Positions 28,268 through 38,435 of a stretch of 64,000 bases of DNA are shown in pieces. The notes below the pieces were generated by a model that was not told where the DNA came from, did no database searches, and saw only the letters and a program-made list of their open reading frames with translations. Origin of the DNA: Gammaproteobacteria bacterium. GTDB lineage: Bacteria > Pseudomonadota > Gammaproteobacteria > Enterobacterales > Alteromonadaceae. Numbering within the stretch: position 1 is the stretch's first letter; every line of letters starts with the position of its first letter. A program made the position numbers and the translations under genes. The stretch is from positions 1-64,000 of the forward strand of contig JAAFAI010000022.1 of NCBI GenBank assembly GCA_018222405.1. The letters run 5' to 3'.

Positions 28268-28565
28268 CAGCGCCTGTCGCTTCACATGCCTATTCATAAT
28301 ATTTTTCTGCCCCTGTTTATATTTCCATTTTTGCCTGTATAGACAACTCCCTACATATCATCCTGTAATCCCTGTACTACACCCTATTGCTATTGCTAAC
28401 TGACTGTATCACTTGGCTTTAGCCGGGAATGTGATTACAGTGGTAATCGTGCCGAAATAAGTATACACCTTGTGTAGTACGGCTATTTCAGCCTCAAATC
28501 ATTGCAATATAACAACAAGGGAGTCACCCCACTTAAGCGGTAATTCCCAAAACGAGAGAAGCATT

Positions 28566-30398
28566 ATGAAAATGACCCGTCTTTCTTTGGTTTCACTGGG
28601 TCTGGTTGCTGCACTTAGCGGCTGTCAGCCAGCCAGCGAACCGCCACAGGAAACCACCGAAACAACACCAATGTATACTGCCGAAGATGCGGCAATGTTT
28701 GTTGAATCAGCCCAGCGTGAAATGGAAAAGATGCAGGTACCGGCAGCCAAGGCCGCGTGGTTATATGCAACCAATATCAACGAAGATACGGCCACGGTGA
28801 ACGCCTATATTTCTGAACTGTATGCAAATCGTGCTTCTGAGCTGGCCAAGCAGGCAGCAGAGTTTAACGATGTGGAAGTCGATGCGGATCTGCGCCGGAA
28901 ACTGGATCTCATGCGCACTTCGCTGACCATGCCACCTCCGGCAAGCCCGAAGAAATCTGAGCGTCTGGCGCAAATTAGCTCAGAACTGGATGGCATGTAT
29001 GGTAAAGGAAAATACTGCCGCTCTGAGGATGACTGTATCGGCCTGGTTGACATGAGTGCAGAAATGGCGACTTCCCGCGATGCCGATCTGCTGCTGGAAT
29101 ACTGGCAAGGCTGGCGCGAAGTGTCTGTTCCCATGAAAGATTTGTATGCCGAACAGGTGGTAATAGCCAATGAAGGTGCGGCAGAACTCGGTTTTGCTAA
29201 TGTCAGCGAGTTATGGCGCAGCAAATATGATATGCCTGCCGATGACTTCCCGGTTGAACTGGACCGCTTATGGGGTCAGGTGAAGCCTTTGTATGATGCC
29301 CTGCACTGCCATGTTCGTGCTGAGCTTGGTGATTACTACGGTGAAGATATCGTGCCTCAGGATAAGCCAATCCCGGCTCATTTGCTGGGCAATATGTGGG
29401 CGCAGAGCTGGGGCAACATTTACGATTTAGTAAAACCCGATGAGCCGATGGAAGTGCCTGACGTTACCGGTGCTTTGCGCGATCAGGGCTACGATGAAAT
29501 TAAAATGGTTAAACAGGCTGAATCGTTCTTTTCCTCACTGGGCTTTGAACAATTACCAGAGACGTTTTGGGAACGCTCTCAGTTCAGTAAACCTGCCGAT
29601 CGCGATGTGCAATGCCATGCTTCGGCCTGGAATGTTGACGATAAAGACGATTTACGCATTAAAATGTGTATCCAGATTACCGGCGAAGAGTTTAACGTAA
29701 TTCACCACGAACTGGGTCACAACTATTACCAGCGTGCTTACAACCAGGAACCACTGCTGTATCGCGTTTCAGCAAACGACGGTTTCCATGAAGCCATTGG
29801 CGATACCATTGCACTGTCCATTACGCCAAAGTACCTAAAAGAAATCGGTCTGATTGATGAAATCCCCGATCCGTCCAATGACGTCGGCATGCTGTTACAG
29901 ACAGCACTGGATAAAATAGCCTTTATTCCGTTTGGATTAATGGTTGATCAATGGCGCTGGAAAGTAATGGCCGGCGAAGTTGGTCCGGATGACTACAACG
30001 AACTATGGTGGAATTTACGTGAGAAGTACCAGGGTGTAATGGCGCCGGTAGCTCGTGAGGCTAACGCCTTCGATCCTGGCGCTAAATATCATGTTCCGGC
30101 CAATGTGCCCTATACCCGTTATTTCCTTGCCCACATACTGCAGTTCCAGTTCCATAAAGCATTGTGTGATGTTGCAGGCGATGAAGGCCCGTTAAACCGC
30201 TGCTCTATTTATGGCAGTGAGGAAGCGGGTGAAGCGCTGAACGCCATGCTGGAAATGGGACAGAGTAAACCCTGGCAGGAAGCACTACAAACGCTGACCG
30301 GCACGGATGAAATGGACGCAAGCACCATTGTTAATTACTTCCAGCCACTTATAAGCTGGCTCGATGAGCAAAATAAAGACCGTCAGTGTGGCTGGTAA
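28566..30398 (+). CDS. M2 family metallopeptidase (ACE-like dipeptidyl carboxypeptidase), lipoprotein
   Basis: 610 residues. The N-terminal signal ends in LSGC, a lipobox, so it is predicted to be a secreted lipoprotein. The zinc site HHELGHNYYQ lies at about residues 380-389, with the third ligand probably Glu in GFHEAIGDTIALS about 25 residues later, as in the M2 (angiotensin-converting enzyme) family. DNA before the ATG carries GAGAGAAG. Bacterial M2 enzymes remove C-terminal dipeptides from peptides. The gene is monocistronic, with a Rho-independent terminator after it. Confidence 0.92.
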   Translation: MKMTRLSLVSLGLVAALSGCQPASEPPQETTETTPMYTAEDAAMFVESAQREMEKMQVPAAKAAWLYATNINEDTATVNAYISELYANRASELAKQAAEFNDVEVDADLRRKLDLMRTSLTMPPPASPKKSERLAQISSELDGMYGKGKYCRSEDDCIGLVDMSAEMATSRDADLLLEYWQGWREVSVPMKDLYAEQVVIANEGAAELGFANVSELWRSKYDMPADDFPVELDRLWGQVKPLYDALHCHVRAELGDYYGEDIVPQDKPIPAHLLGNMWAQSWGNIYDLVKPDEPMEVPDVTGALRDQGYDEIKMVKQAESFFSSLGFEQLPETFWERSQFSKPADRDVQCHASAWNVDDKDDLRIKMCIQITGEEFNVIHHELGHNYYQRAYNQEPLLYRVSANDGFHEAIGDTIALSITPKYLKEIGLIDEIPDPSNDVGMLLQTALDKIAFIPFGLMVDQWRWKVMAGEVGPDDYNELWWNLREKYQGVMAPVAREANAFDPGAKYHVPANVPYTRYFLAHILQFQFHKALCDVAGDEGPLNRCSIYGSEEAGEALNAMLEMGQSKPWQEALQTLTGTDEMDASTIVNYFQPLISWLDEQNKDRQCGW

Positions 30399-31556: not shown

Positions 31557-32417
31557 ATGGATATTGCCGACCTTACCGTTTTTAAAGCCGTCATTGAGCA
31601 TGGCAGTGTTAGCCGTGCGGCCGAGTCACTGCATCGCGTGCCTTCCAACGTGACAGCACGGATCAAAAAACTTGAAAAGGAACTCAATGTGGAGCTGTTC
31701 CTGCGCACCAACAATCGCCTGACCGTTACCTCAGCAGGACTGCAGCTACTCGACTACGCCAATCAGATACTGCACTTACACAAAAGTGCCATAGCGGAGT
31801 TAACCCAAAAAGAGCCTTCGGGTTTACTGCGCCTGGGCTCTATGGAAAGCAGTGCCGCATCGCGCTTACCCGACATACTATCGGCCTTTCACCAGCATTA
31901 TCATGCTGTGCAGGTGGAATTGATTACCCGGGCATCCATGCCACTGATTGAAAAAGTGATTGATGGCGATCTGGATGTGGTTATGGCTGCAGATCCACCC
32001 GATGATCCGCGTTTGCATTGCGTGCCCTGTTTTGATGAAGAATTGGTGCTTATTATGCCGGCTGACTGGCCGAACATAGATGAGCTTCCGACCTCGCTGA
32101 CCATGGTTGGCTATCAGAAAGGCTGCTCATATCGCCACCGTCTGGAAACCTGGTTAAGAAAGCACGGGCACACTTGCGAAAAGGTCATAGAGATCCCCAG
32201 TCACTTTACCATGATTGGCTGTGTTATCGCCGGAATGGGAATTGGCATGGTGCCCCGTTCATTGTTGACGCTGCATCAGACCAGCGGGCTTAAAATAGCT
32301 ACAGTAGATAGTGACATTGCAAATGCCCCTACCTATCTGGTATCCCGTAAAGATAATCCATCAAGCGTCATACAAGCGTTTATCAGTTGCAGCAAGGAAG
32401 TTGCCGCAACTGTATGA
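31557..32417 (+). CDS. LysR family transcriptional regulator
   Basis: 286 residues. The winged helix-turn-helix is at residues 2-60 (VFKAVIEHGSVSRAAESLHRVPSNVTARIKKLEKELNVELF); the rest is a periplasmic-binding-protein-like effector domain (SGLLRLGSMESSAASRLP at about 90). Divergent from the EamA exporter and probably its activator. The ligand is unknown. PtrR-like or YbeF-like branches have a similar N-terminus, but no reliable subfamily was assigned. Confidence 0.92.
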   Translation: MDIADLTVFKAVIEHGSVSRAAESLHRVPSNVTARIKKLEKELNVELFLRTNNRLTVTSAGLQLLDYANQILHLHKSAIAELTQKEPSGLLRLGSMESSAASRLPDILSAFHQHYHAVQVELITRASMPLIEKVIDGDLDVVMAADPPDDPRLHCVPCFDEELVLIMPADWPNIDELPTSLTMVGYQKGCSYRHRLETWLRKHGHTCEKVIEIPSHFTMIGCVIAGMGIGMVPRSLLTLHQTSGLKIATVDSDIANAPTYLVSRKDNPSSVIQAFISCSKEVAATV

Positions 32418-32437
32418 CCGTTATTTTTTTGCTATGC

Positions 32438-32469
32438 TTGACTCTGGAGCTAACTCCAGGGTTTAAACT
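32438..32469 (+). promoter_or_regulatory. MerR-type promoter with operator in 20-bp spacer
   Basis: -35 TTGACT (32438-32443), 20-bp spacer and -10 TAAACT (32464-32469). The spacer contains a perfect palindrome CTGGAG-CTAA-CTCCAG (32444-32459). The over-long spacer with the dyad between the hexamers is the hallmark of MerR-family targets and is very similar to ZntR-type sites. It should control the following merR-exporter operon. Confidence 0.9.
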
Positions 32470-32475
32470 ACCAGT

Positions 32476-32898
32476 ATGAAGACAAAACATTACAAGATTG
32501 GCCAACTGGCAGCACTCACCGGGCTGACCGTCGACACCGTTCGCTTTTATGAAAATAAAGGGCTGGTGCACGCATCACAGCGTTCGGATGCCGGTTACCG
32601 GTTATTTTCTGCTGACGATTTAGCCCGCCTGCAATTTATTAAGCGGGCCAAGACCGTTGGCTTTACCCTTGATGAAATCAGCGAACTTCTGGAACTGCGT
32701 CTGCACCCCGACGATCACACCTGCGAAGAGGTGAAACAGGTCACCGCGCGCAAAGTCCGCGAACTGGATGAAAAGATTGCTGAGCTGGAGAAAATTCGTA
32801 TGTCATTAAAAACACTGCATACCGCCTGCTGCGGCGGTCCTCAGAGTGCCGAGCACTGCTCTATCCTGCAGGCACTGGATTCCATGGAGACATCATGA
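32476..32898 (+). CDS. MerR family metal-responsive regulator (ZntR/CadR-like)
   Basis: 140 residues. MerR helix-turn-helix at residues 5-40 (YKIGQLAALTGLTVDTVRFYENKGL), then a dimerisation helix and a metal loop. Cys83 (HTCEEVK), Cys118-Cys119 (TACCGG) and Cys128 (EHCSIL) match the four ZntR cysteines; the loop His is at 127 rather than at the ZntR position. It should sense Zn(II), Cd(II) or Pb(II). The stop overlaps the exporter start by ATGA, and a MerR-type promoter lies upstream. Confidence 0.92.
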   Translation: MKTKHYKIGQLAALTGLTVDTVRFYENKGLVHASQRSDAGYRLFSADDLARLQFIKRAKTVGFTLDEISELLELRLHPDDHTCEEVKQVTARKVRELDEKIAELEKIRMSLKTLHTACCGGPQSAEHCSILQALDSMETS

Positions 32899-34127
32899 GC
32901 GATATCGCCCTGTTAGCACAAAACTTTTTATTACTGTTTATGGAATCAGCACCATGGTTATTGCTCGGACTACTGGTTGCCGGCCTGATGCATGAACTGG
33001 TCCCCATCAGCATGTTACAAAAGCACATGGGCAGTGCCAGTACCGGCGCTGTTGGTAAAGCGGCAGTCATTGGCGCTCCCCTGCCTCTGTGTTCATGTGG
33101 GGTGATTCCTGCAGCGGTGGGCTTACGCCGCAGTGGCGCCTCCAAACCCGCCACCGTCTCATTTTTGGTCTCCACGCCGGAAACCGGTGTAGACTCAGTG
33201 TCTGTTTCCTACGCGTTGCTTGGCCCACTGTTCGCGATAGTGCGTCCATTTTGCGCCATTGTCAGCGCTATCTACGCAGGAATGATGGTGAAGTGGTTCG
33301 ATAAAGAAGCACCAGCGACCACCAATGAGGCCCCTGCTACACCGGCCGAAGCCCCCCAAAGCTGCTGTAGTAGTAAATCAGAAGTAGAAGAAACAACGAC
33401 ATCCTGTTGCAGCAGCAAACCCGCCGAGCCGGTCAGCACAACATCCTGCTGCAGCACTGAAAAAACACAGGCGACACCAGCAAGTGCCTCTTCTTGTTGC
33501 GATAGCGGTAACAGCTCAGCTTCACCCGCGCACAAACCAGGCTTTACTGACAAAGTCGCCGCTATCTGGCAATTTTCCAGTGGCAAACTGCTTATTGATA
33601 TTACCGTTTGGTTGTTGATTGGCCTGGCGTTGGCCGCAGCAATTCAGACCTGGGTAGCCACCGACTTTCTGACCAGCTGGGGCGACGGGCTGTTGGCCAT
33701 GCTGGTTATGGCGGTGATTGGTATTCCTATGTACATCTGTGCCACAGCATCCACACCTATTGCGGTAGGCTTTTTAAGTGCCGGGTTATCTCCTGGTGCC
33801 GTGCTGGTATTTTTACTGGCTGGCCCGGCCACGAATATTTCAACCATGGGGATGATTGCCAAGGAGATGGGTAAACGAACTCTCATTCTGTATATCACCA
33901 GTGTAATGAGCGCGAGTATAGTGCTGGGCTATGGTTTGAATCTGTTGGTTGATCAGTTTTCATTGCAGTCGTGGATTGCCCTGGGTCAGTCAACCCACGA
34001 ACACGGGGAGATCTCACCAATCTACGCATTGTGTGCTGTGCTCCTCGGTGGTTTAATGATTAGAAATGGCTGGCAGGCACTGCAACAAAAAATGACTAAG
34101 TCTTCTCAGGCCAGCTGCTGTCACTAA
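32895..34127 (+). CDS. SO_0444-type Cu/Zn efflux permease with Cys-Cys repeat linker
   Basis: 410 residues. Two sets of membrane helices (about 5-135 and 225-400) resemble the ArsP/DUF318 permeases, with the CSC motif PLPLCSCGVIPAA at residues 63-74. The long cytoplasmic or periplasmic linker (about 137-215) holds four SCC pairs at Cys157-158, 171-172, 185-186 and 201-202, and the C-terminus ends in ASCCH. These repeats are likely metal-binding. The gene starts at ATGA overlapping the MerR stop, so export and sensing are coupled. Shewanella SO_0444 homologues export copper and zinc; the ion here is inferred from the regulator. Confidence 0.88.
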   Translation: MSDIALLAQNFLLLFMESAPWLLLGLLVAGLMHELVPISMLQKHMGSASTGAVGKAAVIGAPLPLCSCGVIPAAVGLRRSGASKPATVSFLVSTPETGVDSVSVSYALLGPLFAIVRPFCAIVSAIYAGMMVKWFDKEAPATTNEAPATPAEAPQSCCSSKSEVEETTTSCCSSKPAEPVSTTSCCSTEKTQATPASASSCCDSGNSSASPAHKPGFTDKVAAIWQFSSGKLLIDITVWLLIGLALAAAIQTWVATDFLTSWGDGLLAMLVMAVIGIPMYICATASTPIAVGFLSAGLSPGAVLVFLLAGPATNISTMGMIAKEMGKRTLILYITSVMSASIVLGYGLNLLVDQFSLQSWIALGQSTHEHGEISPIYALCAVLLGGLMIRNGWQALQQKMTKSSQASCCH

Positions 34128-34156
34128 TTACTACTAACTGGCAAGCCCTTTGCAAC

Positions 34157-34196
34157 ATCCATGGTTTTCTACACAAATAAGGTGAAAACCATGGAT
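34157..34196 (+). promoter_or_regulatory. Perfect 13-bp hairpin enclosing PMP3 start codon
   Basis: ATCCATGGTTTTC (34157-34169) and GAAAACCATGGAT (34184-34196) are perfect inverted repeats around a 14-nt loop. The translation start ATG (34191-34193) is in the right arm and the ribosome-binding site AAGGTG lies at the edge of the loop. In RNA this stem would sequester the start codon. An in-frame ATG also lies in the left arm. Confidence 0.75.
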
Positions 34197-34349
34197 ATTC
34201 TACGCATTTTATTGTCAATTTTACTGCCACCGCTGGGCGTGTTTCTGCAAGTCGGTATTGGCGCGCAATTCTGGATCAATATTTTACTGACTCTGCTGGG
34301 CTATATCCCGGGCATTGTGCACGCGGTTTATATTATTGCTAAGCGCTAG
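34191..34349 (+). CDS. PMP3/YqaE family proteolipid
   Basis: 52 residues with two hydrophobic helices (LRILLSILLPPLGVFLQVGIG at 4-24, FWINILLTLLGYIPGIVHAVYII at 27-49) and a conserved LLPPLGVF motif of the PMP3/YqaE family. In yeast and plants, PMP3 proteins tune membrane potential under salt or cold; in bacteria they are often stress-induced. The start is the ATG at 34191 with AAGGTG upstream; a start at 34161 would add ten residues but has no ribosome-binding site. The 3' end overlaps the convergent halogenase gene by 11 bp. Confidence 0.88.
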   Translation: MDILRILLSILLPPLGVFLQVGIGAQFWINILLTLLGYIPGIVHAVYIIAKR

Positions 34350-35889
34350 CCGCCTTAAGCCGGTTAAAATATTCCCGGTTAGTTGGCAACTGCGCCAACA
34401 GCTTATCGCCATTGTGCAAAAACTCCCGGCGCACCCTTTCAATTAGTGGTTTGCGCAGACTGGTAATGCCACCCGGCTGCCAGTCATGGGAGCGAAACCC
34501 CATGCCATACAATACGTATTGTTTACTGGCAGAGGAGAAAAGCTCCTGGCGCAGATTGGTTTCTAACAAGCCAGGCGGCTGACTTTGCCATAACTGCAAA
34601 GCATCCTGCAGGCTGTCTGTCCAGGAGGCGGGATCGGCATGGGCCTGCCAGTAGGGGCTGTCGCGGCGCTCACTTAATACATAATGCAGTTTGATGAAGT
34701 CAATAATCTCATCCCACCGGGCGTCCGTCATTTCATTGTAGCGTTTACCAAGTACCGCCATGGCAGCCCGGCTGCGTGGCAGTTGGTCGGCTATCCACTC
34801 CGCCGACTTTTCAATCAATACCAGTGCCGTGGCTTCCAGCGGTTCAACAAAACCGGCCGAGACCCCGATGGCAACGCAATTATGTTCCCAGAACCGCGCC
34901 CGGTGGCCGGGATCAAACCGAATGGTTCGCGGCATAATCGCTTTCTGACTTAAAGACTCATCACTGCTGATATAGGCTCTTAATGCGTCTTCGGCCTGAG
35001 TCTCGGTAGTTAGCTCGCTGGCAAAGACATGACCGATACCGCGGCGCGACTGTAACGCGATATCCCACACCCACCCGTGAGGCCTGGCTGTCGCCACGGT
35101 ACACGAGGCTATTGGCGTTAGCTCACTGGCATGGTTCACCTGGGCTGCCACTGCCGTGTCGTTGAATAAAATATGCCGTTTAGAAACAAAGGGGACGTTG
35201 TAATGCTGCCCGATTAAGCGCGCACTAAAACCACTACAATCAATAAATAAGTCACCAGCCAACGGCTCGTCTTGCGCCAGCTCGATAGCTGCTATTGCGC
35301 CATCGGGATGACTCTGGATACCGGCAACGTGGGCGCTTTTATACTGTACGCCGAGTTGCTCAGTACAATGACGATGAAGGAGCGCGACAAATTTATCGGC
35401 GCTTAAATGGTAGCCGTAATTAAAATTGTAAGCGAATTCGGGTAATTGCGGCATTTTCGGCGCCTGATAGCGCTCACAGGCCATGCCCTGAGCACAAACC
35501 CAGGACTCAAAGTCGCCCGGACATCCTTCTTCGTGCCAGGCTTCGACCAGATTGACCGCGCCAAACCCCGCAGGCGCCGTAAAGGGATGGTAATACTTAT
35601 CCTCGCCGCCCTGCTGCCAGCCAACAAACTTTGAAGCCTGCTTAAAGCTGGCATCACACTCACTGAGAAACTGCTTTTCGGCAATGCCCAGCAAACGCAG
35701 CGTATCGCGCATGGTAGGCCAGGTTCCTTCACCCACGCCAAGGTTTTTAACGTCAGGCGATTCCACCAGAATGACTTCAGTGTGACTGTTCTCGCCAACC
35801 AATGGGTTCTTGGCCGCAATAATACCGGCAGTAAGCCAGCCGGCGGTACCACCGCCTACAACCACAACCCGGGTGATATTCTTTTCCAT
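34339..35889 (-). CDS. Flavin-dependent halogenase-like protein 1
   Basis: 516 residues of the tryptophan-halogenase superfamily: the FAD motif VVVVGGGTAGWLTA at the N-terminus, the catalytic-lysine segment ECDASFKQASKF with Lys83, and the AGFVEPLEATAL block. The second family signature WxWxIP is altered to GWVWDIAL, with Ala in place of Pro, which is uncommon among proven halogenases. It is the last gene of a five-gene unit with a TonB receptor, SapC and a cupin protein, and it follows its paralogue by 9 bp. In such loci these proteins are believed to modify a nutrient or protein rather than make chlorinated secondary metabolites; the true reaction is unknown. Confidence 0.85.
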   Translation of the reverse strand: MEKNITRVVVVGGGTAGWLTAGIIAAKNPLVGENSHTEVILVESPDVKNLGVGEGTWPTMRDTLRLLGIAEKQFLSECDASFKQASKFVGWQQGGEDKYYHPFTAPAGFGAVNLVEAWHEEGCPGDFESWVCAQGMACERYQAPKMPQLPEFAYNFNYGYHLSADKFVALLHRHCTEQLGVQYKSAHVAGIQSHPDGAIAAIELAQDEPLAGDLFIDCSGFSARLIGQHYNVPFVSKRHILFNDTAVAAQVNHASELTPIASCTVATARPHGWVWDIALQSRRGIGHVFASELTTETQAEDALRAYISSDESLSQKAIMPRTIRFDPGHRARFWEHNCVAIGVSAGFVEPLEATALVLIEKSAEWIADQLPRSRAAMAVLGKRYNEMTDARWDEIIDFIKLHYVLSERRDSPYWQAHADPASWTDSLQDALQLWQSQPPGLLETNLRQELFSSASKQYVLYGMGFRSHDWQPGGITSLRKPLIERVRREFLHNGDKLLAQLPTNREYFNRLKAASA

Positions 35890-35898
35890 ACCAGGCCC

Positions 35899-37395
35899 TT
35901 ACTTAACCTGCTCGCCGGCCGGACAATACCGGGCGATAAAGTCGGCGTGGGCAGGTAACTGGCCCAACGCATTATTCACCGATTGCTTAAATGCACTGAG
36001 TTGTTGTTTTAAGCCGTCGGTGGGTAACATTCGACTTGCCCCATGATGCTGAGCAGGCATCAGGCCCTGGCCCATCATTACCTGCACCCAGGAATCTACT
36101 CTGAACAGCGCCACATCATCGGGCCATACGTAGCCATTTTGCGCAAAAATAGCCATTCGATGGGCTAAGGGTTCAGGAATATCCATGGTGCGGTAATGAT
36201 CCCAGAAATCACTGTCTGTTCGTTTCGTCAGGTTATAGTGCAGAATAATAAAGTCGCGGATGGTCTCCATCTCTTTTTGCGTTTCGCGATTATATTGTTC
36301 AGCGAGCAATTTATAATCACTGCTAAACGGAAACAGCTTCATCAGGCGGATAAGCGCGGTGGTGACAAGATGAATACTGGTGGATTCCAAAGGCTCCAAA
36401 AAGCCACTGGCCAACCCAACGGCAATACAGTTTTTATGCCAGGCTTTTTCTCGTCGGCCGGTCTTAAATTTAAGATAACGGGGCTCGGTTAGCATTGCGC
36501 CGTCGAGGTTTTGCTTAAGGGTTGCCAGTGCTTCCTCGTCACTTAAAAAGCGACTGCTATAAACAATACCGTTACCCACCCGAGATTGTAGTGGGATCCG
36601 CCACTGCCAACCGGCGTTATGGGCCGTGGCGATAGTATAAGGTTTAGGCGCTTCGGTAGATTGGGTTTGAATGGCAATTGCCCGATCGGCAGCCAGCCAG
36701 TGACTCCAGTCTTCATATCCAACATCAAGGTGTTCGCCTATTAACAGTCCCCTGAAACCGGTGCAATCAATAAACACATCCCCTTCTATCGCAATACCGG
36801 TATCCAGCGTCAGGCGGGTTAGGTTACCACTTTGTGGATCGGTATCTACCGACTGAATTTTACCCTCGCATCGGGTAACACCGGCGGCTTCGGATTTATT
36901 TCTAAGGTACGCAGCATAAGCCGTGGCGTCGAGGTGGTAGGCAAAGTTAAGCGGCCGATTACCAATCTTAGTGGCAAACTTATTGGCTTTGGCAGCTTTT
37001 AGTTCAAGGCAATAGTCTTCCAGACTGTCCTGCTGACCATTAGCCACCGCTTCCATCCAGAATTCATGAAATTCGGCCATCCATGAACGCTGACCGATTT
37101 CGCCAAAAGAGTGAATATAGCTGTCACCGTCATTTGCCCAGTTATCAAACTGAATCCCCAGCTTAAAGGTGGCGTTTGTCGCAGCCATAAATTCTTGTTC
37201 GTTGATGCCCATCAGCTGATGAAAATTACACATGGTAGGAATGGTTGCTTCCCCTACTCCCACGGTGCCAATCTGATCAGACTCAACTAACGTGATATCC
37301 AGCACGTTACCTAAACGGGTCACTAAACTAAACGCGGTTAACCATCCGGCAGTGCCGCCGCCGGCTACAACAACACGGGTTTTCTTTTGCGCCAT
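35899..37395 (-). CDS. Flavin-dependent halogenase-like protein 2
   Basis: 498 residues with the tryptophan-halogenase fold: VVVAGGGTAGWLTAF, VGVGEATIPTM, the lysine segment NATFKLGIQF (Lys78), a canonical WQWRIP motif, and ASGFLEPLESTSIHLV near residue 350. All the signatures of the halogenase family are present, unlike in its neighbour. It sits 14 bp downstream of the cupin-like gene and 9 bp upstream of its paralogue. The two paralogues are clearly diverged and are not a recent tandem duplication. FAD must be supplied as FADH2 by a reductase encoded elsewhere. Confidence 0.88.
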   Translation of the reverse strand: MAQKKTRVVVAGGGTAGWLTAFSLVTRLGNVLDITLVESDQIGTVGVGEATIPTMCNFHQLMGINEQEFMAATNATFKLGIQFDNWANDGDSYIHSFGEIGQRSWMAEFHEFWMEAVANGQQDSLEDYCLELKAAKANKFATKIGNRPLNFAYHLDATAYAAYLRNKSEAAGVTRCEGKIQSVDTDPQSGNLTRLTLDTGIAIEGDVFIDCTGFRGLLIGEHLDVGYEDWSHWLAADRAIAIQTQSTEAPKPYTIATAHNAGWQWRIPLQSRVGNGIVYSSRFLSDEEALATLKQNLDGAMLTEPRYLKFKTGRREKAWHKNCIAVGLASGFLEPLESTSIHLVTTALIRLMKLFPFSSDYKLLAEQYNRETQKEMETIRDFIILHYNLTKRTDSDFWDHYRTMDIPEPLAHRMAIFAQNGYVWPDDVALFRVDSWVQVMMGQGLMPAQHHGASRMLPTDGLKQQLSAFKQSVNNALGQLPAHADFIARYCPAGEQVK

Positions 37396-37409
37396 TAATT
37401 TAAGCCTAT

Positions 37410-38435
37410 TTATCGATTAAGGTTATTCAGTAACATTGCGCGTAAACGGCGCGCCGATAATTCATCCATCTGTGCCAGCGGACCATGACATTCCACCGGC
37501 AAATGCTCGATGACTTTTTCGCCGTCACCAAACACATAATAGTCAAACAATGCTCGCCAGGCGGCTTTTTCCTCGGCCGGTTTGTCGCGCAAAGTGAGCA
37601 TGCCATGCATGAGCAGGTCCATGGGATTGCCCAGATAAGGTTTGGCTGTCATCCACCAAAAATTAACCATAACGTTAAAGCGGTCAAACGCCCTGACCTC
37701 ATGCCACCACATACTCGGGTAATACAGTCCGTCACCAGGTTCCAGATCAGCAATCCAGGCATTTTCCAGTGCGGTTTTTAAGCGTGGGAATTTTTCAAAG
37801 TCGGGCTCATCAAGATTAGCGGTGGTAACCACTTGCCCCCCAGGCGTTGGCGACAGCGGTCCGGGGTATAAATTGTCTACCTGCTCTGGCGAAAACAGGG
37901 TAAAGCGCCGTTTACCTAATACGCAACAGGCTATATTTTTAGGTTGATCAAAATGCGCCGCCGCCACCGATTCGGTGCCAATCCAAATTTTGGGTACCGG
38001 CTGATTATTGGTAAATTCCGGATGCGAAAAATTGAGCGTATTGGCTTTACTTAATTCAGGCAAACCCTGATCAAATCGCAAGGAGTTTATATACAGGTAT
38101 TCGTGCTCATCATCACTGAAACCGGCTTTGATTTGTGCCAGCACGTCACAGAGACGCGTTTTTTCGCTGCTATAGTTAAAGCCCGTGCAGGTGTCGTTGT
38201 AACCAAAACGCGATTTAATGTGTGCTGGCGCACGGTATGCCAGCAGCGGCCGGCCGGTATCGTTTTCAGTAAGCTGCGCCATGGCCTGCTCAACAGACTG
38301 TTTGCCAGCTTGTACCAGCGGCCAGTTGTTCACCAGCCCTTTGAGTATTACCGGTTTATTTAACGCAAAAAGATCGTCAAAAGGAATGTTGTCGGGTGAA
38401 ATGCCCTCTATCACAAGTACCTGATTGGCCGTCAT
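37410..38435 (-). CDS. JmjC-like cupin domain protein
   Basis: 341 residues. Cupin_8/JmjC core with an iron-binding facial triad: His161 and Asp163 in AAAHFDQPKN and His245 in SMWWHEVRAF; 2-oxoglutarate could bind around KRRFTLFSPEQ. This pattern is that of 2-oxoglutarate-dependent protein hydroxylases. It lies between SapC (20 bp) and the halogenase-like genes (14 bp), and probably functions with them. Such cupin-SapC-halogenase groups recur next to TonB receptors in gammaproteobacteria and Caulobacter relatives. The substrate is unknown; modification of a carbohydrate-uptake protein is one possibility. Confidence 0.87.
   Translation of the reverse strand: MTANQVLVIEGISPDNIPFDDLFALNKPVILKGLVNNWPLVQAGKQSVEQAMAQLTENDTGRPLLAYRAPAHIKSRFGYNDTCTGFNYSSEKTRLCDVLAQIKAGFSDDEHEYLYINSLRFDQGLPELSKANTLNFSHPEFTNNQPVPKIWIGTESVAAAHFDQPKNIACCVLGKRRFTLFSPEQVDNLYPGPLSPTPGGQVVTTANLDEPDFEKFPRLKTALENAWIADLEPGDGLYYPSMWWHEVRAFDRFNVMVNFWWMTAKPYLGNPMDLLMHGMLTLRDKPAEEKAAWRALFDYYVFGDGEKVIEHLPVECHGPLAQMDELSARRLRAMLLNNLNR

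Follow-up and report, generated by a model that had tools for sequence, protein, structure and literature searches.

An Alteromonas zinc/copper defence operon whose exporter family carries cysteine pairs in linker or tail and whose sensor mRNA is predicted to be leaderless

The locus described here, from a marine Alteromonas, belongs to a known type of two-gene operon for defence against zinc and copper, in which the gene of a ZntR-type sensor is followed by that of an exporter of the SO_0444 family (Table 1). It lies in a window of 64,000 nucleotides, which is the whole stretch of DNA that was analysed (contig JAAFAI010000022.1 of assembly GCA_018222405.1), and the nearest named relative that we found, Alteromonas oceani S35, has an exporter with 96% identity. 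We propose, with a probability of roughly 0.62 for the explanation as a whole, that this is an autoregulated operon whose exporter carries a thiol chain that works largely regardless of its position, and whose sensor is made from a leaderless mRNA.

In this explanation, ZntR would sit on the long-spacer promoter and untwist it, as is known for E. coli ZntR, when the level of zinc or of a comparable thiophilic metal goes up, so that one mRNA is made for both ZntR and the exporter. The exporter would then move metal out through its core, by way of the CxC motif and C282, while the linker and the C-terminal tail would be of one functional kind, namely flexible chains of thiols, both on one side of the membrane and probably facing the cytosol. 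These chains would capture metal and enrich it close to the pore, and their exact length, sequence and place would be of little importance. The sensor itself would probably be translated from an mRNA whose predicted start coincides with the ATG.

Table 1. Features of the sensor-exporter locus (positions in the window; residue numbers refer to the exporter)
Feature	Position	Strand	Remarks
ZntR-type promoter	32438..32469	+	-35 TTGACT, 20-bp spacer with dyad CTGGAG...CTCCAG, -10 TAAACT
-35 hexamer TTGACT	32438-32443	+	part of ZntR-type promoter
-10 hexamer TAAACT	32464-32469	+	part of ZntR-type promoter
6-nt stretch, -10 hexamer to sensor ATG	32470..32475	+	transcription start predicted at or beside the ATG
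zntR, MerR-family zinc sensor, 140 aa	32476..32898	+	TIGR02043 and NF007069 matches
SO_0444-family Cu/Zn efflux transporter (CuZnOut_SO0444, ArsP_1 superfamily), 410 aa	32895..34127	+	NF033936 and PF03773 matches
Membrane CxC motif, C66-S67-C68	33090..33098	+	conservation among 182 homologues
Hydrophilic linker, residues 136-216, 81 aa	33300..33542	+	
SCC pair 1, C157-C158	33363..33368	+	
SCC pair 2, C171-C172	33405..33410	+	
SCC pair 3, C185-C186	33447..33452	+	
SCC pair 4, C201-C202	33495..33500	+	
Terminal CCH, C408-C409-H410 (SCCH end)	34116..34124	+	

A reading made earlier from the sequence alone had described the exporter as an SO_0444-type permease, and the curated models agree: it scores 438.5 bits against NF033936 (CuZnOut_SO0444; residues 12-390, curated cut-off 300) and 145.7 bits against PF03773 (ArsP_1; gathering cut-off 32.3). 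No other protein of its genome exceeds the NF033936 cut-off. Overlapping sets of genomes show such matches in 55 of 59 for the genus, in 82 of 295 sampled for the order, in 39 of 369 for the class and in 40 of 398 for the phylum. For comparison we collected 194 loci (L001-L194); one of them, the below-cut-off paralogue L002, has no exporter match and was dropped, and the remaining 193 proteins became 182 distinct homologues once identical ones were removed, some with uncertain starts or incomplete (lengths 249-506 before duplicate removal). Over-cut-off matches that stand outside this set are two identical-scoring G607 copies, G477, G528, G634, G687, G388, G792 and G722:C8. Among the 182 homologues, C66 and C68 are each conserved in 179 and C282 in 181, and the CxC motif together with C282 is likely to form the metal path. 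Among solved structures, the exporter sequence had no match up to E = 1, and an AlphaFold model of the exporter, built on 12 close relatives, reached a mean pLDDT of 34.5 and a pTM of 0.18. An eight-segment reading of the membrane topology (8 TMS; PMC2963123), combined with the positive tail, places the linker and the tail in the cytosol, while single-loop charge counts conflict with this. Since CC pairs occur in either the linker or the tail, both regions are suggested to lie on the same side of the membrane, probably the cytosolic one.

The sensor is the sole over-cut-off ZntR of its genome. The earlier proposal that the exporter has its own MerR-type sensor can be made more precise, as the zntR product scores 179.5 bits against TIGR02043 (curated cut-off 167.95) and 184.8 bits against NF007069 (cut-off 143), and stays below the cut-offs of the CueR, MerR and CadR-PbrR models. 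We counted an exporter as paired when a co-directed ZntR-like gene lies within -60 to +150 nt of it, and 83 of the 182 homologues have such a neighbour. Another (L179) has a co-directed gene farther away, in 10 a ZntR-like gene lies on the opposite strand, and for 88 the fetched stretch, in some cases cut by a contig end, contains none. Within the genus, from whose counts L013 (Aestuariibacter sp. GS-14) was left out, the 54 distinct exporters divide into 23 paired and 31 unpaired ones. Thus, the pairing of sensor and exporter is not general in the family.

Four cysteines of the sensor (C83, C118, C119 and C128) have aligned cysteine counterparts in the solved chain of E. coli ZntR, where we take them to be metal ligands. 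C83, C118 and C128 are invariant in the 83 paired ZntR-like proteins, and the position of C119 holds a cysteine in 70 of them. The metal loop of E. coli ZntR (CCGTAH) also contains a histidine, presumably a ligand, at a position where this sensor has a glutamine; here, a histidine stands directly before the last cysteine instead. The same shift is common among the paired proteins, as the E. coli position is H in 3 and E, D or Q in 75, and the histidine directly before the last cysteine is found in 59 of the 83. Because of this shifted histidine, the details of the metal site may not be the same in this sensor as in E. coli ZntR; the TIGR02043 cut-off is independent of the metal-loop histidine.

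The layout of the locus is also as first described from its letters, with a MerR-type promoter and two genes that overlap by ATGA (gap -4). A dyad and a 20-bp spacer separate TTGACT from TAAACT, within the 19-20 bp that define MerR-type promoters, and the 76 boxes found at the 83 paired loci have a spacer of 20 bp in 70 cases and of 19 bp in 6. The promoter 32-mer occurs once in the window and in none of 100 shuffles. Throughout the 4.96-Mb assembly, this promoter is the sole exact match to a degenerate ZntR-box pattern, it is again alone when a slightly longer pattern is allowed up to two mismatches, and the reversed control of the pattern has zero matches.

The surroundings of the operon hold several further features. 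Just 3' of the exporter there is a 16-nt inverted repeat with 94% complementarity and a 14-nt gap (34154-34199); within this stretch falls the likely start (34191) of the small Pmp3-family gene that comes next. On the minus strand, two adjacent genes of the tryptophan-halogenase family and a Cupin_8 gene occupy 34339-38435. A Peptidase_M2 (angiotensin-converting-enzyme-like) gene lies at 28470-30398 (E 3.6e-224).

The most conspicuous part of the exporter is its linker, in which the sequence-only reading had seen four SCC pairs about 14-16 residues apart, plus a terminal CC. This is what we find, with spacings of 14, 14 and 16 and with C408-C409 at the end of the protein. The linker, with its 81 residues and four CC pairs, is ordinary for the family. 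A count of CC repeats in homologues, which had been proposed as a check, gives 0-7 pairs per linker and a total of 463 in the 182 proteins, whereas 200 within-linker shuffles average 72.6 and never exceed 92; the pairing is therefore not due to chance. At least one pair is present in 162 linkers, at least four in 52, exactly four in 25 and only one or two in 83. Linker length ranges from 21 to 192 residues (median 65.5), and the number of pairs increases with it (Spearman 0.81), with up to 14 linker cysteines in L063 and L152. Serine precedes 359 of the 463 pairs, and the distance between pairs has a median of 15 and quartiles of 13 and 19.

The cysteines and the rest of the linker have fared differently. 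Among close relatives, dN/dS is 0.16-0.41 in the linker and 0.01-0.09 in the core (10 pairs; linker dS was saturated in 5 further pairs, with L008). Mean identity to this exporter, over 12 rows that include the exporter itself, is 94.8% in the linker cysteine columns, 55.5% in the other linker columns and 90% in the core. The cysteines are thus held while the remaining linker residues drift. It had been proposed that a linker that is not conserved would speak against a role of its own; length and sequence are indeed not conserved, but the cysteines are.

Across the 182 homologues, CC pairs occur in the linker in 162, in the tail in 82, in both in 77 and in neither in 15. Because 20 linkers are devoid of CC, and those 15 proteins have it in neither region, the pairs are not strictly required; the linker of 10 of the 15 contains CxC. 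Five homologues carry CC on the tail with none in the linker. Three of them (L101, L180 and L181) have no linker cysteine at all, and the exporter at 1200-2520 of L086 has three CC repeats on its C-terminal tail and one cysteine in its linker. No homologue among the 182 is without cysteine in both linker and tail. The loops at residues 355-372 and 253-265 hold 1 cysteine in 5289 residues over the homologue set. The family does not have CC pairs to itself, since they also occur in 5 of the 20 ArsP_1 relatives that score under its cut-off; those of L205 are close to the N-terminal end of the reading frame and not in the middle. Linker composition also varies with pairing: in the genus, linkers of unpaired exporters have a median of 4 histidines and those of paired exporters 1 (p = 3e-6), and the medians for CC pairs are 2 and 3, respectively (p = 0.005), both p values being uncorrected for relatedness. 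Genus loci where ZntR is not adjacent, such as L016, L023 and L124, have His-rich linkers that also hold CC pairs; no regulator of these exporters was found.

The distribution of the cysteines speaks for a thiol chain whose position does not matter rather than for a gate that is specific to the linker, because five homologues have their CC pairs on the tail only and none lacks cysteine in both regions. The sequence-only reading had named the linker a possible metal buffer or gate. A gate or sensor, in which bound metal folds the linker and so opens or closes the transporter, would suit a segment placed between the two transporter halves whose cysteines stay while their neighbours drift; however, a gate should require a fixed geometry, and the variable length and CC number, together with the five tail-only relatives, weaken this half of the earlier proposal to the point that we consider it distinctly unlikely. 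The buffer half remains plausible. Taken as a store that lowers free metal independently of transport, like a membrane-tethered metallothionein, the linker would explain why CC number rises with length and why as many as 14 cysteines can accumulate, but a membrane exporter is usually scarce relative to the incoming metal and many members have only one or two pairs, so a pure store seems unlikely to us. Least probable is a redox or regulatory thiol device, such as a disulfide switch or thiol transfer, in which the pairs would not be metal ligands at all. Adjacent cysteines can form strained disulfides, which speaks for it; against it stand the larger number of linker histidines in genus members without adjacent ZntR, which fits metal ligands, and the ties of the family to soft metals (PMC3219624, PMC10092412). 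The thiol chain serving the pore is thus the reading that we prefer, and the family offers a natural experiment on how exporters collect soft metals, since its members carry from none to seven CC pairs, or carry them on the tail and not the linker.

The second unusual trait concerns the start of the sensor gene. The ATG (32476) lies 6 nt after the end of the -10 hexamer (32469) and is the sole in-frame ATG, GTG or TTG from the box to 90 nt into zntR. Since transcription usually starts 6-8 nt after the -10 hexamer, the sensor mRNA is predicted to begin at or beside the ATG, that is, to be leaderless. At each of the 23 ZntR-paired loci of the genus, an ATG follows the -10 hexamer by 6-7 nt, with differing bases in the gap (the count includes L139, where a TTG precedes the ATG, and L138, whose spacer was taken as 19 nt), and L013 likewise has it at 6 nt. 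Outside the genus, the first in-frame start lies within 8 nt in 9 of 58 loci, and the remaining 49 have it at 11-67 nt, under a box rule that is loose there and with L050, which has no box, left out of the 58. With a stricter rule, the short distance is seen at 22 of 24 loci in the genus, L013 included, and at 6 of 52 outside it; the two exceptions in the genus, L038 (a chance upstream box) and L106 (a double ATG), both have 7 nt by the looser rule. The constancy of the spacing within one genus may in part reflect shared descent. Alternatively, most sensor mRNA could have a leader and come from read-through of the upstream LysR gene or from an unseen promoter, the ZntR box giving only the induced transcript. 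The 58 bp between the LysR stop (32417) and the ATG make read-through possible, but the short spacing is kept throughout the paired genus loci despite the differing gap bases, and no sigma-70-like site (16-18 spacer) was found upstream of the sensor within 32300-32475; we therefore find this alternative unlikely too. If the sensor mRNA is leaderless, as we predict, every paired locus of the genus has kept a metal-sensor gene that lacks an mRNA leader, which is a rare form of gene start. In the start-site map of Alteromonas macleodii Te101, only 10 transcripts are reported as leaderless; the map lists 1315 gene start sites, and the median leader length is 63 nt (PMC5864184). The accessible text of the open-licence literature searched yielded no description of a leaderless ZntR.

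It is tempting to go further, although we regard the following as tentative and on balance doubtful. The SO_0444 family would have a movable CC chain that grows and shrinks and serves the pore from the linker or from the C-terminus, and in Alteromonas the sensor would come from a conserved leaderless mRNA, so that one promoter sets the output of sensor and exporter through different modes of translation. These different modes are speculative, because the ribosome-binding site of the exporter is weak in many genus members. For the same reason, a strong site of the exporter (GGAG in the window) was considered as a contrast to the leaderless sensor and rejected.

Several known systems resemble parts of this locus, as described in the accessible portions of the papers cited here. 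The closest is SO_0443-SO_0444 of Shewanella oneidensis MR-1, where a putative ZntR orthologue, predicted to regulate SO_0444, and the SO_0444 exporter form one operon; SO_0444 was reported in 2011 to be required under ZnSO4 or CuCl2 stress (PMC3219624). By analogy, our exporter is a putative exporter of copper and zinc. A family member from Nitratiruptor is induced by Cd and Cu (PMC10092412), and a selenocysteine form with a UxC motif has been listed (PMC13188914). The ArsP-type permeases of about 400 residues belong to the same superfamily (PF03773) and have the same kind of central insertion, a hydrophilic stretch of about 100 residues between TMS4 and TMS5 described in 2010; the available part of that paper mentions no cysteine repeat in ArsP, whose function was then not known (PMC2963123). 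The earlier statement that the exporter differs from simple ArsP permeases thus holds only in part, given this insertion in one ArsP type (PMC2963123) and the CC pairs of the five ArsP_1 relatives. As far as the accessible text of the open-licence literature searched goes, we found no discussion of the CC repeats of the exporter.

The promoter has the same -35 hexamer, dyad arms and 20-bp spacer as that of E. coli zntA, with 25 of 32 bases matching. In contrast, the E. coli box drives a P-type ATPase gene, zntA, whose ATG lies well downstream, whereas here it drives zntR and a different exporter. Other families of the order (L044-L064) also differ, mostly having 22-45 nt from the -10 hexamer to the zntR ATG where a box was found, against 6 nt here. 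A MerR-family regulator made from a leaderless mRNA does have a precedent in CvkR of Anabaena, in which the start codon coincides with the transcription start, mapped there and predicted here; unlike our sensor, CvkR represses a CRISPR-associated transposon and is not linked to metals (PMC9938897). Because SO_0443-SO_0444 and the ArsP insertion had already been described, the operon, the exporter and the linker are of known kinds, and what our work adds to them is the exchange of CC repeats between linker and tail and the predicted leaderless sensor.
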